Assembly: GCA_017419405.1 (NCBI GenBank)
Contig: JAFOLH010000015.1
Location: 186,001-250,000 of the forward strand
DNA length: 64,000 nucleotides
Direction: 5' to 3'
Source of the DNA: Renibacterium sp.
Lineage (GTDB): Bacteria > Actinomycetota > Actinomycetes > Actinomycetales > Micrococcaceae
Made by a program: the position numbers and the translations under genes. Shown piece by piece: positions 25,725 through 56,517 of the stretch. Numbering within the stretch: position 1 is the stretch's first letter; the number at the start of each line of letters is the position of its first letter. Under the pieces are notes generated by a model. It did no database searches and was not told the DNA's origin. It saw nothing but the letters and a program-made list of their open reading frames with translations.

Positions 25725-27206
25725 GTGCCTCATTCGCAGATCGTCGTGCCCGACAATGACCGGCCCCTGCACGAAGCCCTGGCGGCTTTGCAGACCGAAT
25801 TCGAGCTGCCTGCCGGCTTCAGCCCGGAGGTGAGCGCGGAACTCGAACGATCGATCGCCGAGCACCGGCTTCCGGACTCGGATCTGACCGGGTTGCCGTT
25901 CATCACCATCGATCCGCCGGCTTCGATGGATCTGGATCAGGCGATGCATCTGGTCCGCGAAGGCCAGGGTTACCGGGTCTACTACGCGATCGCCGACGTG
26001 CCCGGGTTCGTGCCGCCCGGCGGCGCCCTGGACGCGGAGACCCGCAAGCGCGGCCAGACCATCTACGCCCCGGACCGGATCACCCCGCTGCATCCGAAGC
26101 AGCTCAGCGAGGATGCGGCGAGCCTGCTCGCCGGAAAAACCCGCAGCGCGTTCGTCTGGCAACTGGCGCTGGACTCGGCGGGCAGTACGGTCGGCGCCAC
26201 GGTGGCCAGAGCGCAGGTCGCCTCCGTGGCCAAGCTCGGTTACGCACAGGCCCAGGACGAACTCGACGCCGGCACCCAATCCGAATACCTGCCGACGCTG
26301 GAATTGCTCAAGGAAATCGGGCTGAAACGGATCGAGCTGGAACGCCGCCGCGGTGGCGCGAGCCTGAACTCCCCGCAACAGGAGGTCGTCCACGAAGCCG
26401 GCGTCTATCAGCTGGTCTTCCGGCCCAATCTGCCGATCGAGGATTGGAACGCGCAGATCTCGCTCGCCACCGGGATGGCTGCGGCGCAGATCATGCTGGA
26501 AGGGAAGATCGGCATCCTGCGGACCATGCCGGCCCCGGATCCGGCCGCGGTCGACCGCTTCCGCAGACAAGCCGCAGCGCTGGGCAAACCGTGGCCGCGC
26601 GATTTGGCCTATGGCGAATTCCTGCGTTCCTTGGACCCGGCCGAGCCCCGACAACTCGCGCTGCTGCACGCGGCCACTGCGCTGTTCCGCGGCGCCGGAT
26701 ACACCCCTTTCGACGGCGCGGTCCCGGAACAGACCAGCCAGGCCGCCGTGGCCGCGCCCTATGCGCACACCACCGCACCGCTGCGTCGCCTGGTGGACCG
26801 CTTCGTGTTGACCATCTGCGCCGCGCTCAGCAATGGCGCCGAGGTGCCTGATTGGGCCCGCGCGGCGCTGCCGGATCTGCCGAAACTCATGGCCGCCTCG
26901 GATCAGTTGGCCGGACGGGTGGACCGGGCGGCGCTGGACACGGTCGAAGCGGCAGTGCTGAGCAGCCGGATCGGCGAAGAATTCGACGCCGTGGTGCTGG
27001 CCGGTGCCCGCAAAACCGACAACAAAGCCGAACCAGGCAAAGGCGTACCGCGCCCCAGCACGCAATTTTCCACCGTGCAATTGGCCGAACCGGCGGTTTC
27101 GGCACCCTGCGAAGGCGATTTGGAGCCGGGAAGCACGCTCCGCGTCCGACTGCTCACTGCGGACATCGCCACCAGGACCGTCCGGTTTACCGTGGCGGCA
27201 GGCTAA
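25725..27206 (+). CDS. RNB-domain ribonuclease (RNase II/R family)
   Basis: A 493-residue 3'-5' exoribonuclease. The RNB active-site segment reads TIDPPASMDLDQAMHL (about residues 62-77): Asp residues equivalent to E. coli RNase II D201, D207 and D209 are present, but the fourth is Gln. APYAHTTAPLRRLVDRF at about residue 340 is the conserved C-terminal RNB motif. The protein is shorter than RNase R and lacks obvious cold-shock domains at the N-terminus. GTG start. Confidence 0.88.
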   Translation: MPHSQIVVPDNDRPLHEALAALQTEFELPAGFSPEVSAELERSIAEHRLPDSDLTGLPFITIDPPASMDLDQAMHLVREGQGYRVYYAIADVPGFVPPGGALDAETRKRGQTIYAPDRITPLHPKQLSEDAASLLAGKTRSAFVWQLALDSAGSTVGATVARAQVASVAKLGYAQAQDELDAGTQSEYLPTLELLKEIGLKRIELERRRGGASLNSPQQEVVHEAGVYQLVFRPNLPIEDWNAQISLATGMAAAQIMLEGKIGILRTMPAPDPAAVDRFRRQAAALGKPWPRDLAYGEFLRSLDPAEPRQLALLHAATALFRGAGYTPFDGAVPEQTSQAAVAAPYAHTTAPLRRLVDRFVLTICAALSNGAEVPDWARAALPDLPKLMAASDQLAGRVDRAALDTVEAAVLSSRIGEEFDAVVLAGARKTDNKAEPGKGVPRPSTQFSTVQLAEPAVSAPCEGDLEPGSTLRVRLLTADIATRTVRFTVAAG

Positions 27207-27234: not shown

Positions 27235-27277
27235 GCTTATATTTATATATTTGCATATTTTGATGTATACTTTTTCC
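27235..27277 (+). promoter_or_regulatory. AT-rich leaderless-type promoter
   Basis: A 43-bp stretch made mostly of A and T within a high-GC genome. TATACT at 27266-27271 is a good -10 box, and six bases later comes the ATG at 27278. Transcription would then begin at or next to the start codon, as in the leaderless mRNAs common in actinobacteria. No good -35 is evident at the usual distance. Confidence 0.6.
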
Positions 27278-27442
27278 ATGGACATTCAAGGGATCTTCAA
27301 CTGGTTCGGCTCCGTCTGGAGCTGGGTCTCGAGCACCGTTGATTCCGTGCTGAGCAGCATCAGCGCCATCGTCTCCACGGTGACCGGCTGGGCCAATACG
27401 GTTTCTTCCTGGTTCAGCGGATTCGGTGGAATCGGCGGCTGA
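27278..27442 (+). CDS. Small Trp/Ser-rich hydrophobic peptide, probably leaderless
   Basis: A 54-residue open frame starting ATG GAC, lying alone between the RNB and DEAD-box genes. It has five Trp residues, many Ser/Val/Ile/Thr, only two charged residues (both Asp) and a Gly-rich tail (SGFGGIGG). No cleavable signal peptide. The middle (VDSVLSSISAIVSTVTGWA) could form an amphipathic or membrane helix. No Shine-Dalgarno precedes it, but a -10 box ends 6 bp before the ATG. It resembles in style PorA/PorH-type channel peptides, leaderless bacteriocins or type I toxins, but no family can be named. Confidence 0.6.
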   Translation: MDIQGIFNWFGSVWSWVSSTVDSVLSSISAIVSTVTGWANTVSSWFSGFGGIGG

Positions 27443-27710
27443 CCGGCGTGGCCCGGGCCAAAAAGCTGGCTTTGGGCATCCATCGGATAGACTGGAGCGG
27501 TATAAAAGGATGCCCGGTCGTTCCTGCAATGACTTTTTCCGGCCGCCCCAGCAATCGTGGCGGCCAATCCTGTGGCACCGAATAGATCGGTACCGCGCGC
27601 GAATCTGCGATCGGCTTCCGCTGGCTGTGCCTCCCGCAACGGCTCCGTCCACCGCTTCCGAAGTGGCCGACGTCGAGCCTGGGCTGGCACCTTAAAGGAA
27701 GTTCTAGCTC
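27443..27710 (+). other. Leader region of the DEAD-box gene
   Basis: About 268 bp without a convincing gene. A short palindrome TGGCCCGGGCCA at 27449-27460 follows the small peptide gene. TATAAAAGG near 27501 is the most promoter-like sequence; used as a -10 it would give a ~200-nt leader. AAGGAAG precedes the TTG start of the helicase gene. Confidence 0.45.
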
Positions 27711-29390
27711 TTGACTATCGACAACCAACACCATTTGCATGCCGAAGGCTCCGACGACGAATTGACCGTCGAAGCTTCGTTGACCAGCACTGAAGAGCCG
27801 CACAAGGAGGTCACCGAGACCTTCGCCGACTTCAACGTCCGAGCGGATATCGTCGAGGCCTTGGCCGACGCCGGGATCGTCCATCCGTTCCCGATCCAGT
27901 CGATGACCCTGCCGGTGGCTTTGGGCGGCCATGACATCATCGGCCAGGCGAAGACCGGAACCGGCAAGACGCTCGGCTTCGGCGTACCGGTGCTGCAGCG
28001 CGTCGTCGCCCCGAAAGACGAAGGCTACGAAGCCTTGGCAGCGCCCGGTGCACCGCAGGCCCTGATCGTGGTGCCCACCCGGGAGCTCGCGGTCCAGGTG
28101 GCCAACGACCTGCAGACCGCGGCGCGCAAACGCGGCGCCCGAATCACCACGATCTACGGCGGCCGCGCCTTCGAGCCGCAGATCGAATCCCTGACCAAGG
28201 GCGTCGAAGTGGTCGTCGGCACTCCGGGCCGGTTGATCGACCTGTTCAAACAGCGGCACCTGAATTTAAAGAACGTACGCATGGTGGTGCTGGACGAGGC
28301 CGACGAAATGCTCGACCTGGGCTTCCTGCCCGACGTCGAGACTTTGATGGCAGCGACTCCCCCGGTACGCCAGACCATGCTGTTCTCCGCCACGATGCCC
28401 GGTCCGATCGTCGCCATGGCCCGGCGCTACATGACTCAGCCGACGCACATCCGGGCCGCCGATCCGGATGACGAAGGCCTGACCAAACGGGACATCCGGC
28501 AATTGGTCTACCGTGCGCACAGCATGGACAAGATCGAAGTGGTCGCCCGGATCCTGCAGGCCCGGGGCCGCGGCCGGACGATCATCTTCACCAAAACCAA
28601 ACGCACCGCCGCCAAGGTGGCCGAAGAATTGGTGGAGCGCGGATTCGCTGCCGCGGCGATCCACGGTGACCTGGGACAGGGTGCCCGGGAACAGGCCCTG
28701 CGCGCGTTCCGGAACAACAAAGTTGATGTGCTGGTGGCCACCGACGTCGCCGCCCGCGGTATCGACGTCGACGACGTCACCCACGTGATCAACTACCAGT
28801 GCGTGGAAGACGAAAAGATCTACCTGCACCGGGTGGGCCGGACCGGCCGCGCCGGGAACAAGGGCACCGCGGTGACGTTCGTCGATTGGGACGACATGCC
28901 GCGCTGGGGACTGATCAACAAGACCCTGGGTCTGCCCTTCCCGGAGCCGGTGGAAACCTATTCCTCCTCGCCGCACTTGTTCTCCGATCTGGACATTCCG
29001 GAAGGAACCAAAGGCCGGCTGCCCCGGAGCCAGCGCACGCACGCCGGTCTGGGCGCCGAAGAGATCGAAGATCTGGGTGAAACCGGCAAGCGCAACAGCG
29101 GAAGCAACGACCGCGGCGGCAGCCGCGGCGGCCGGGACTCCCGCAGCCGGGACGGCAGGTCCGGCGGCCGGGACGGCGACCGGCAGCGTTCGCGCACCCG
29201 TTCCGGTTCGGATTCCGGCCGCGCTGCACGCTCTGACGACGGAACGTCGGCCGGGCCTGCGGAGGCCGCCGAGTCGAAACCGGCCAGCCGGAACCGGCGC
29301 AGCCGGACCCGCCGCCGCAACGGCGAAGTCGTCGGCCGGGACGGACAGCAGGGCTCCGGTTCCGCCGAATCGCCGTCGTCAGCTTCCTGA
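27711..29390 (+). CDS. DEAD-box RNA helicase
   Basis: A 559-residue ATP-dependent RNA helicase of the RhlE/CsdA group. Q motif (PFPIQSMTLP), Walker A AKTGTGKT, PTRELAVQ, VGTPGRL, DEAD (VLDEADEMLD), SAT (FSATMP) and the C-terminal HRVGRTGRAG are all present. The last ~110 residues are Arg/Gly/Ser-rich (RGGSRGGRDSRSRDGRSGGR), as in RNA-binding tails. TTG start with AAGGAAG upstream. Likely in one transcript with the methyltransferase 8 bp downstream; the long leader suggests cold or post-transcriptional control (inference). Confidence 0.94.
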   Translation: MTIDNQHHLHAEGSDDELTVEASLTSTEEPHKEVTETFADFNVRADIVEALADAGIVHPFPIQSMTLPVALGGHDIIGQAKTGTGKTLGFGVPVLQRVVAPKDEGYEALAAPGAPQALIVVPTRELAVQVANDLQTAARKRGARITTIYGGRAFEPQIESLTKGVEVVVGTPGRLIDLFKQRHLNLKNVRMVVLDEADEMLDLGFLPDVETLMAATPPVRQTMLFSATMPGPIVAMARRYMTQPTHIRAADPDDEGLTKRDIRQLVYRAHSMDKIEVVARILQARGRGRTIIFTKTKRTAAKVAEELVERGFAAAAIHGDLGQGAREQALRAFRNNKVDVLVATDVAARGIDVDDVTHVINYQCVEDEKIYLHRVGRTGRAGNKGTAVTFVDWDDMPRWGLINKTLGLPFPEPVETYSSSPHLFSDLDIPEGTKGRLPRSQRTHAGLGAEEIEDLGETGKRNSGSNDRGGSRGGRDSRSRDGRSGGRDGDRQRSRTRSGSDSGRAARSDDGTSAGPAEAAESKPASRNRRSRTRRRNGEVVGRDGQQGSGSAESPSSAS

Positions 29391-31202: not shown

Positions 31203-31316
31203 CGCCTAAGCCTATCCCTCAGGGTTCCCTGGCCGAGCTTGCGAGGTTAGGGCTGAGGGAAAGGCGCTATCCCCGGAGCCTCCCACCGGACTGCCTGGAC
31301 CCGGTAGGATTCCGGA

Positions 31317-31667
31317 ATGAAGCGCATCCGCCCGATCATGCTCATCCTGGCACTCGGCCTCGCGCTGACCGGGTGCGACGGCTCTGCTGGCTCGCCGCCC
31401 GCCACGAGCAGCCAGCAAAGCCCGGAAACCTTGGGCAACGCGGAGGTTTCCGGGACCTACACCTCCGGTGGCTGGGTGATCCGGCTGGCCCCTGACGGCA
31501 CCTGGGAAGAAGACCTCAACGGACAGGTCAACGCCTACGGCGGTGCATACACACTGGACGGGAACACCATCACCCTCAACGACCGCCGGGGATCGAGTGA
31601 AACCGCGACGATTTCCGGCAACGAACTCCGGCTGCCCTCGATCACCCTGCAGAAACAGGCGCCATAG
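31317..31667 (+). CDS. Small lipoprotein
   Basis: A 116-residue putative lipoprotein. Basic start (MKRIRP), hydrophobic core and lipobox LTGC at residues 18-21, then a Ser/Pro linker and a beta-rich domain (GTYTSGGWVIRLAPDGTW, NTITLNDRRGSSETATI) reminiscent of small META/lipocalin-like folds. It lies before the aminopeptidase gene with a 55-bp gap. No known family assigned. Confidence 0.8.
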   Translation: MKRIRPIMLILALGLALTGCDGSAGSPPATSSQQSPETLGNAEVSGTYTSGGWVIRLAPDGTWEEDLNGQVNAYGGAYTLDGNTITLNDRRGSSETATISGNELRLPSITLQKQAP

Positions 31668-45837: not shown

Positions 45838-46482
45838 GTGAATACACTGACAGACAATCTTGACCTCTTCACCGAAGGTTTCAAGAACACCATCATCCTG
45901 TTCTTCTTCTCCGCGATCTTTTCGCTGGTCCTAGGCGTGATCGTCGGCGCGTTCCGGGTTTCTCCGGTCACCCCGATGCGGGCACTGGGCACCTTTTACG
46001 TGAACCTGATCCGGAACACCCCGTTGACCCTGGTGTTCTTGTTCTTCTTCTTCGGCTATCCGAAGCTGGGTTTCCCTAATCCGGGCTTCATTCCGTTGGC
46101 GATCATCGCCCTGTCCTTGTACACCGCGACTTACGTTTCCGAAGCGATTCGGTCCGGCATCAATACCGTCCCGGTCGGCCAGGCCGAAGCCGCCCGGGCG
46201 ATCGGCTTGCCGTTTGCCCAGACCATGTCGCTGGTGATCCTGCCGCAGGCCTTCCGGGCCGTGGTCCCGCCGATGATGAGCGTGTTCATCGCCTTGCTGA
46301 AGAACACCACGGTCGCGGCCGGGTTCTCGGTCATGGAGGCCGGCGCGATCCGCTCGAACCTGTCCGAACGCGGCTACCCGGCGATGCAGAGCCTGCTCTG
46401 GGTCGCCCTCGGCTTCATCATCCTGGTCGCCGTGCTGAGCCTGGTGCAACGCAAGCTCGAGAAGAAATGGAAGGTGGCCTGA
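45838..46482 (+). CDS. gluC: Glutamate-type ABC transporter permease
   Basis: A 214-residue membrane permease. The EAA-like loop AEAARAIGLPFAQTMSLVILPQAFR is characteristic (VGQAEAARAIGLPFAQT and ILPQAFRAVVPP). About five hydrophobic segments. GTG start. It overlaps gluD by one base (TGATG). Confidence 0.92.
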   Translation: MNTLTDNLDLFTEGFKNTIILFFFSAIFSLVLGVIVGAFRVSPVTPMRALGTFYVNLIRNTPLTLVFLFFFFGYPKLGFPNPGFIPLAIIALSLYTATYVSEAIRSGINTVPVGQAEAARAIGLPFAQTMSLVILPQAFRAVVPPMMSVFIALLKNTTVAAGFSVMEAGAIRSNLSERGYPAMQSLLWVALGFIILVAVLSLVQRKLEKKWKVA

Positions 46483-55680: not shown

Positions 55681-55695
55681 CGTAGGATTATTCCT

Positions 55696-56517
55696 ATGAC
55701 TTCCACGCAGCACAATCCCGCCATCGCGTTGACCATCGCCGGTTCCGAAGCGACCGGCGGAGCAGGCGCCCAGGCCGATCTGAAGACCTTCCAAGCGCTG
55801 GGCGTCTTCGGCATCGCGGCCTTGACCTGCATCGTCTCTTTCGATCCGAAACAGAGTTGGAACCACCGCTTCGTCCCGGTGGACGCCCAGGTCATCGCAG
55901 ACCAGCTCGAGGCGATCACCACGGCCTACCAGCCGGAACAACTGGACACGGTCAAAATCGGCATGCTCGGCACGCCCGCGACCATCGACACCGTGGCCGC
56001 ATCGCTGGCCGGGCATGACTGGCAGCACATCGTGCTGGATCCGGTGCTGATCTGCAAAGGCCAGGAGCCGGGTGCCGCCCTGGACACCGACCAGGCCCTG
56101 AAACGCGAGATCCTGCCCAAGGCCAGCTTTGTGACACCGAATCATTTCGAATCGCTTTCGCTCTCCGGAATGAGCGAAATCGACGACGTCGAGGACCTCA
56201 AAGAAGCCGCCCGGCGGATCTTCGACTCGGCCGGCGCCACGGTGCTCGCCAAGGGCGGAGTACGCCTGGCCGGGGCCGAAGCGGTCGATGTGTTCTACGA
56301 CGGATCCACGCTCGAAGTGCTCAGTGCGCCGAAAGTCGGCGAGGTCGCGGTCTCCGGAGCCGGCTGCTCCCTGGCTGCCGCGATCGCCGCGGAACTCGCC
56401 AAAGGCGCGGCTCCGCTCACCGCTGCGTACACCGCAAAGGCTTTTGTCACCGCGGCCATCGAAGCGCGGGTCAGTTCCCGGGCCCCGTTCGACGCCGTTT
56501 GGCAGGGCGCGAGGTAA
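55696..56517 (+). CDS. ThiD/PdxK-family kinase
   Basis: A 273-residue ribokinase-fold kinase of the hydroxymethylpyrimidine/pyridoxal kinase group. [20 protein letters not shown] is the substrate-binding start, KIGMLGTP and VLDPVLICK follow, and [16 protein letters not shown] is the anion-hole/catalytic-base region, with Cys as in ThiD-like PdxK proteins. Substrate could be HMP-P (thiamine) or pyridoxal. ATG start; convergent with the MshB fusion gene. Confidence 0.88.

Follow-up and report, generated by a model that had tools for sequence, protein, structure and literature searches.

Positions 27278..27442 (forward strand) of the window, as the whole stretch of 64,000 nucleotides analysed is called here, hold a 54-codon frame that is, on comparison with related genomes, a gene conserved in a few related bacteria. 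The explanation favoured, with a probability of about 0.6, is that its product is a small protein which would be made from a leaderless mRNA, transcribed from an AT-rich promoter of its own, and would lie as an amphipathic helix on the surface of the cytoplasmic membrane. The family so defined is new, lineage-specific and narrow in distribution, and of a known kind, the leaderless small proteins of actinobacteria. No description of the peptide was found in the literature under open licence.

The frame runs from an ATG at 27278 to a TGA at 27442 and specifies a Trp-, Ser- and Gly-rich peptide, predicted to form an amphipathic helix, with five Trp, two Asp, no Lys, Arg or Glu, and a Gly-rich tail. 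A second in-frame ATG is present at 27263; since its counterpart in a relative (G002), read by eye, is out of frame, 27278 is the conserved start. Upstream is the gene for an RNB-domain exoribonuclease (25725..27206, forward strand; Pfam PF00773, E 7e-44, and PF18614, E 1.1e-17), and downstream that for a DEAD-box RNA helicase (27711..29390, forward strand), assigned from family matches and from gene order in seven genomes of the genus. The original prediction had placed an isolated gene of this composition between two RNA-related genes, and in these respects it stands, the reality of the gene being borne out by intact orthologs (in G059, G002 and G003), occupancy of the same slot and selection at the protein level.

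Orthologs, genomic slot and selection

Intact orthologs lie directly upstream of the same helicase gene in four of the seven genus genomes examined (the window's own, G059, G002 and G003). G059 is of the same species as the window genome and its peptide DNA is identical; at the peptide level, identity to the window copy is 59% for G002, whose frame is intact at 51 codons, and 38% for G003, ortholog lengths being 51-54 residues. When 59 related genomes were searched in all six frames, the peptide turned up in G002 (E 2e-15) and G003 (E 7e-7). The next-best matches, L008 and L031 (E 5e-4 and 8e-3), proved to be other genes when read, and those remaining were at E 5e-4 or weaker. A separate search of genome contigs yielded one relative from 88 candidate stretches, in Acaricomes phytoseiuli, which is the same gene as that of G003; G002 was not among its results. 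At the slot upstream of the helicase the peptide is missing from the other three of the seven (G001, G004 and G005), and the gene is therefore dispensable. Searched singly at E up to 10, these three gave only one match at 0.25 (G005) and one at 0.42 (G004), neither at the slot, with none in G001.

Wherever it is present, the peptide gene is the immediate upstream gene of the helicase and its promoter region, and what lies on the other side of it varies. Nothing intervenes between the RNase gene and the slot in the window genome, G059 and G003, and a different gene does so in G001. In G002, G004 and G005 (L091, L093 and L094) the intervening gene encodes an ATPase that we take, from its KGGIGKT motif, to be ParA/MinD-like. 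Helicase identity to the window copy, usable as a rough clock, is 95% for G002, 93% for G004, 92% for G005, 84% for G001 and 81% for G003. With that clock standing in for a tree, the distribution is most simply explained by an ancestral gene and two or more losses, with transfer as the alternative.

Conservation of the coding sequence is evident at the level of the protein. Ratios of dN/dS are 0.16 (window copy and G002), 0.39 (window copy and G003) and 0.42 (G002 and G003), rough values given that dS is high and near saturation, and for the same three pairs 0, 7 and 1 of 2000 neutral simulations had equally few amino acid changes. Third codon positions dominate the differences, which number 14, 9 and 25 by codon position between the window copy and G002, and 21, 20 and 30 between it and G003. 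An invariant core, W..TVSSWF, lies close to the C end. The base of the family is thin, at three distinct ortholog sequences.

Leaderless geometry and the AT-rich promoter

The signal ahead of the frame is a box resembling a -10 element, TATACT (27266..27271, forward strand; TATAAT in G059), and its distance from the ATG is exactly 6 bp, as had been claimed. Also as claimed, a ribosome-binding site is missing, there being no purine-rich site within 21 bp upstream of the ATG. From this spacing, transcription would be expected to start on the A of the ATG, and we infer both a leaderless start and translation of the frame. A promoter scan of 2 kb returned a single site, the TATACT site, with 9 of 12 matches and a weak -35 element, where shuffles lead one to expect 0.3. 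TA-like signals some 10-12 bp upstream are reported to mark leaderless genes, a class that accounts for over 20% of the genes of Actinobacteria (PMC3160421). In the window genome and in G059 the box begins 12 bp upstream, within the range for a TANNNT whose first T lies about 10-12 bp from the start codon, with no Shine-Dalgarno sequence. The frame shares with leaderless actinobacterial small-protein genes, as the sources describe them, the 6 bp between box and ATG, the lack of a ribosome-binding site and a length under 60 codons (PMC4633059, PMC3160421).

The box lies in an island of low GC content. In a scan of the 64-kb window by 43-bp segments the minimum is at 27237..27279 (no strand assigned), with 7 G/C, the next place having 12; the 43 bp singled out originally as strikingly AT-rich (27235-27277) have 9 G/C and overlap this lowest 43-mer, in keeping with that description. 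An Lsr2 gene is carried by the same genome; silencing of the AT-rich DNA by Lsr2, raised originally as a possibility, would have no such island to act on in G003. Within the island, a block at 27244..27271 (forward strand) is conserved in G002. Of its 28 bp, 24 are identical, whereas the figure for silent sites is about one third, and 0 of 5000 mononucleotide shuffles reach this level. A 24-letter degenerate pattern built from the two sequences, searched with up to three mismatches, occurs only at the peptide locus, once each in G000 (the window's own genome), G059 and G002, with no match in G003, G004 or G005. Since it is confined to this locus it resembles a private promoter or operator, not the site of a regulon.

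Not all of this geometry is kept in each ortholog. The -10 box stands 6 bp from the ATG in the window genome, G059 and G003, and 7 bp in G002, where it reads TGTACT, a weaker form that departs from TANNNT. G003 is without the AT-rich block, from which it follows that the island is dispensable for the gene as a family; there TAAGAT lies 6 bp before the ATG and AGGA lies 12 nt upstream of it. The claim of leaderless geometry thus holds for the species of the window and for G003 and is weaker in G002 (TGTACT, 7 bp), and leaderless initiation itself is less certain both in G002, because its box is weak, and in G003, because of the AGGA. Counts over whole genomes of the arrangement TATAMT-N5-7-ATG, set against a reversed-pattern control, are 12 against 6 in the window genome, and fall below the control in G002 (10 against 21), G003 (4 against 7), G004 (1 against 13) and G005 (8 against 22). 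With no genus-wide excess, the geometry is rare and no proof by itself.

Other starts of leaderless appearance are present in the window, one for a frame at 31305-31667 that looks lipoprotein-like, with TAGGAT 6 bp before its ATG, and one at 55683-56517 for a frame like a thiamine-pathway kinase, with TAGGAT 7 bp before (both named by eye). Elsewhere in the same genome the 15-mer TATACTTTGATCATG occurs twice on opposite strands (G000:C5:46208-46222, reverse, and 46249-46263, forward), the starts being 41 bp apart, the pair forming a short inverted repeat that carries two units resembling a -10 box with an ATG.

The predicted helix and its counterparts

Amphipathicity is plain in the sequences. 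Over 44 residues the helical hydrophobic moment at 100 degrees is 0.50, 0.51 and 0.50 for the three orthologs, which none of 2000 shuffles of each attained, and the maximum is at 102 degrees. Hydrophobic residues recur at spacings of 3-4, a heptad pattern, from residue 3 to residue 46. Trp residues (five in the window copy and in G002, three in G003) are close to both ends. Ser, Thr, Gly and Asn make up most of the polar face, heptad positions c, d and f being mostly of these four residues in the window copy and G002, and G003 is richer in Asp and Glu; net side-chain charges are -2, -1 and -3. The original suggestion of a membrane-active peptide fits this, the sequence predicting a membrane-active amphipathic helix with a moment of 0.50; of the kinds then named, a porin-like peptide would agree with the shape. 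As to how such a helix would sit, the usual hydropathy threshold for a transmembrane span is 1.6, and the maxima over 19 residues are 1.32, 1.41 and 1.22, so that a surface helix is favoured over a transmembrane span. The window peptide has no positively charged N-region, and a signal peptide was judged absent by eye.

Putting these features in order, the AT-rich dedicated promoter would give a leaderless mRNA whose 5′ end coincides with the ATG or adjoins it, and from which a peptide of 51-54 residues with no recognisable signal sequence would be made. On contact with a membrane it would fold into a single long amphipathic helix with Val, Ile, Phe and Trp on one face and mostly Ser, Thr and Gly, with few charges, on the other. 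Most likely the helix would lie flat on the cytoplasmic membrane, within the plane of its surface, and recognise packing defects there. That the peptide associates with itself is a guess, as is any physiological role, for instance that it acts from the membrane surface to adjust or disturb either the membrane itself or a partner bound to it.

Polar faces of Ser, Thr and Gly with an absence of charges characterise the ALPS (amphipathic lipid packing sensor) helices (PMC6164224), and a long predicted amphipathic helix with few charges and a polar face mostly of these residues is what the window peptide shares with them (moment 0.50 in all three orthologs, with more Asp and Glu in G003). A difference is that the ALPS examples given in that part of the source are segments of larger proteins, whereas the window peptide is a free-standing bacterial one (PMC6164224). 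The ALPS of GMAP-210, in the excerpt describing it, has one hydrophobic residue per turn, whereas the window peptide is denser (by eye) and has several Trp. A second likeness is to the corynebacterial PorA and PorH peptides, which are described as short (PorACj has 40 amino acids), without Sec or Tat signals and forming a heptad amphipathic helix (PMC3792995, PMC5944148). The resemblance is one of shape, with the helix computed and the signal peptide judged by eye, and is physical, not drawn from sequence comparison. The known members of PorA/PorH sit in the mycolate cell wall of Corynebacteriales, whereas the lineage of the window host is not known to bear mycolates.

Profile searches assign the peptide to no known family. 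The window member has no match in Pfam up to E 10 and none in NCBIfam, and the other two orthologs match only unrelated models, for one member each (Baculo_PEP_C, E 0.21; NCBIfam RiPP_TigB, E 0.012; a pyruvate dehydrogenase model, E 0.14). Among these two libraries, in which models for phenol-soluble modulin beta and leaderless class II bacteriocins are presumably present, none of either group was matched. PADLOC returned no family of anti-phage defence for any of the three members. All three have weak matches to PHROG 305 and 1535, repeats of phage tape-measure proteins, the best at E 0.013 and not significant, and a shared Trp/Ser composition of amphipathic helices is the likely cause.

Distant relatives and origin

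No relative was found outside the genus in samples of 395 genomes from the family, 396 from the order and 396 from the phylum. Profile matches at E up to 0.01 came from 21 of the 395 family genomes; four are the orthologs and 17 were dropped (15 from genus g32, one each from g6 and g31). The dropped matches cover only positions 7-41 and lie inside frames of 81-274 codons elsewhere; in seven of the 17 the part that matches is interrupted by stops, and none of the eight that were read is a small gene. Together they look like one conserved gene matched in the wrong frame. The order sample gave four matches among its 396 genomes, namely the window genome's own, two of the g32 type and one (L063) inside a long frame resembling an ABC-transporter permease (named by eye), and the single match at E up to 0.001 among the 396 phylum genomes is again the window genome's own.

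The idea that the gene might have been acquired is not borne out as far as recent acquisition goes, since its GC3 is host-like (0.80, against 0.81 and 0.83 for the neighbours), the slot is occupied in three lineages, and no match to the peptide was found in 50,697 phage and 72,556 plasmid records or, as a relative, among 147 candidate stretches of viral contigs. The window genome has no paralog, the next-best match there being at E 0.25, and no solved structure matches up to E 10. A scan of the window for tRNA and tmRNA genes found none.

A probable leader RNA of the neighbouring helicase

Some 60 bp past the peptide stop, as placed by its TAGACT site, begins what is probably a structured leader RNA of the helicase (region 27488-27710). 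Its two blocks, GGATGCCCGGTCG (27508-27520) and CGATCGGCTTCC (27608-27619), can pair across a variable loop, and the order is TAGACT, then GGAUGCCCGGUCG, then CGAUCGGC(U)UCC, with the blocks 56-227 nt apart. All 30 loci compared have both blocks ahead of the helicase gene, with pairing scores of 10.5-12, by a pattern that was widened after variants had been seen (with the narrower pattern used at first, the 5′ block was recognised in 25 of the 30). These loci were drawn from 54 genomes with a helicase match, 28 being from the family of the window and two from other families of the order. In 22 of the 30 there is an 11-pair helix in which 96.3% of cells pair and two pairs are changed on both sides, and an RNAalifold consensus independently gives nearly the same helix. 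Helices slid along the alignment have no more than 53.7% of cells paired, although covariation scores among them go up to 0.057, the observed score being 0.050. Because the blocks hardly vary, additional types of pair are not in excess of those in shuffles (477 of 500).

Of 20 further loci, ten fit a crude form of the pattern, some perhaps by chance, and two have the blocks closer together. With strict filters, a covariance model of the leader finds two of 296 phylum genomes, both of the family of the window. Rfam has nothing in the window at gathering scores, and around the locus only a chance match to a snoRNA model (E 4.9); the literature under open licence yielded no description of the leader. 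On these comparisons it is probably a new, family-wide structured RNA, and it is present also in genomes that do not have the peptide. At seven of the 30 loci (L067, L068, L069, L070, L071, L073 and L074) the 5′ block can be read as a mini-frame of four codons, MPGR-stop, and at others the same ATG opens a longer frame; the mini-frame may be a mini-uORF, or it may arise by chance from the conserved RNA block.

Alternative explanations

Proximity to the helicase raises the question of whether the peptide is incidental, with the AT-rich promoter serving the helicase operon as a second promoter under certain conditions and the frame being a leader ORF on a longer transcript. In keeping with this, the slot immediately precedes the helicase even in genomes with a different gene on its other side, and the interval from the peptide stop to the helicase yielded no terminator-like site. 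However, a TAGACT site of the helicase itself lies about 220 bp upstream of it and is conserved in most of the loci that were read, though the promoter scan did not list it, and selection at the protein level together with the conserved amphipathic pattern indicates that the product matters, which leaves an incidental peptide quite improbable. A hydrophobic small peptide adjoining genes of RNA degradation also brings to mind a toxin like those of type I systems, silenced by an antisense RNA or checked by the RNase and helicase neighbours. Genomes without the peptide nevertheless retain RNase and helicase, and the conserved leader further downstream likewise occurs without it; no conserved element linked to the peptide was seen downstream, the stretch from its stop to the helicase promoter aligning poorly (by eye), and no antisense promoter-like site appeared in the 2-kb scan, the same scan that missed the TAGACT site of the helicase. 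We regard such a toxin as very improbable.

Closer to the chemistry of the peptide is the proposal that it forms channels though it has no export signal, its helices assembling into a pore as proposed for PorA/PorH, or else damages membranes as a toxin or anti-competitor peptide. Its shortness (51-54 amino acids), lack of a recognisable export signal and heptad amphipathic helix accord with either version; physical features described for PorACj in the available part of one report match (PMC3792995), and an amphipathic helix is ascribed to PorACur in the excerpt of another (PMC5944148). Against both, there is no significant match in Pfam or NCBIfam and none in PADLOC, and none of the four neighbours scanned in the window genome is a transporter or immunity gene. 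To our knowledge a mycolate outer membrane is not expected in the family of the host, and leaderless bacteriocins are cationic, whereas the peptide is anionic. Channel or toxin, this is unlikely. A broader version is rather more doubtful, namely that the orthologs stand for a new family, in non-mycolate actinobacteria, of channel-forming or curvature-sensing peptides with no export signal, made from leaderless mRNA under a conserved AT-rich promoter of their own, as a bacterial, free-standing counterpart of ALPS or PorA. The leaderless small protein on the cytoplasmic membrane surface is the reading retained, its membrane binding being inferred.

Implications

The peptide adds a conserved small-protein family that has no significant match in the curated models searched, and it comes with testable predictions, that the transcript starts at the ATG and that a nearly uncharged amphipathic helix of 44 residues binds membranes. 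Were it to form channels, PorA-like chemistry would reach beyond mycolate envelopes. Of the two features that lie side by side here, the more general discovery may prove to be the leader RNA of the helicase rather than the peptide gene.
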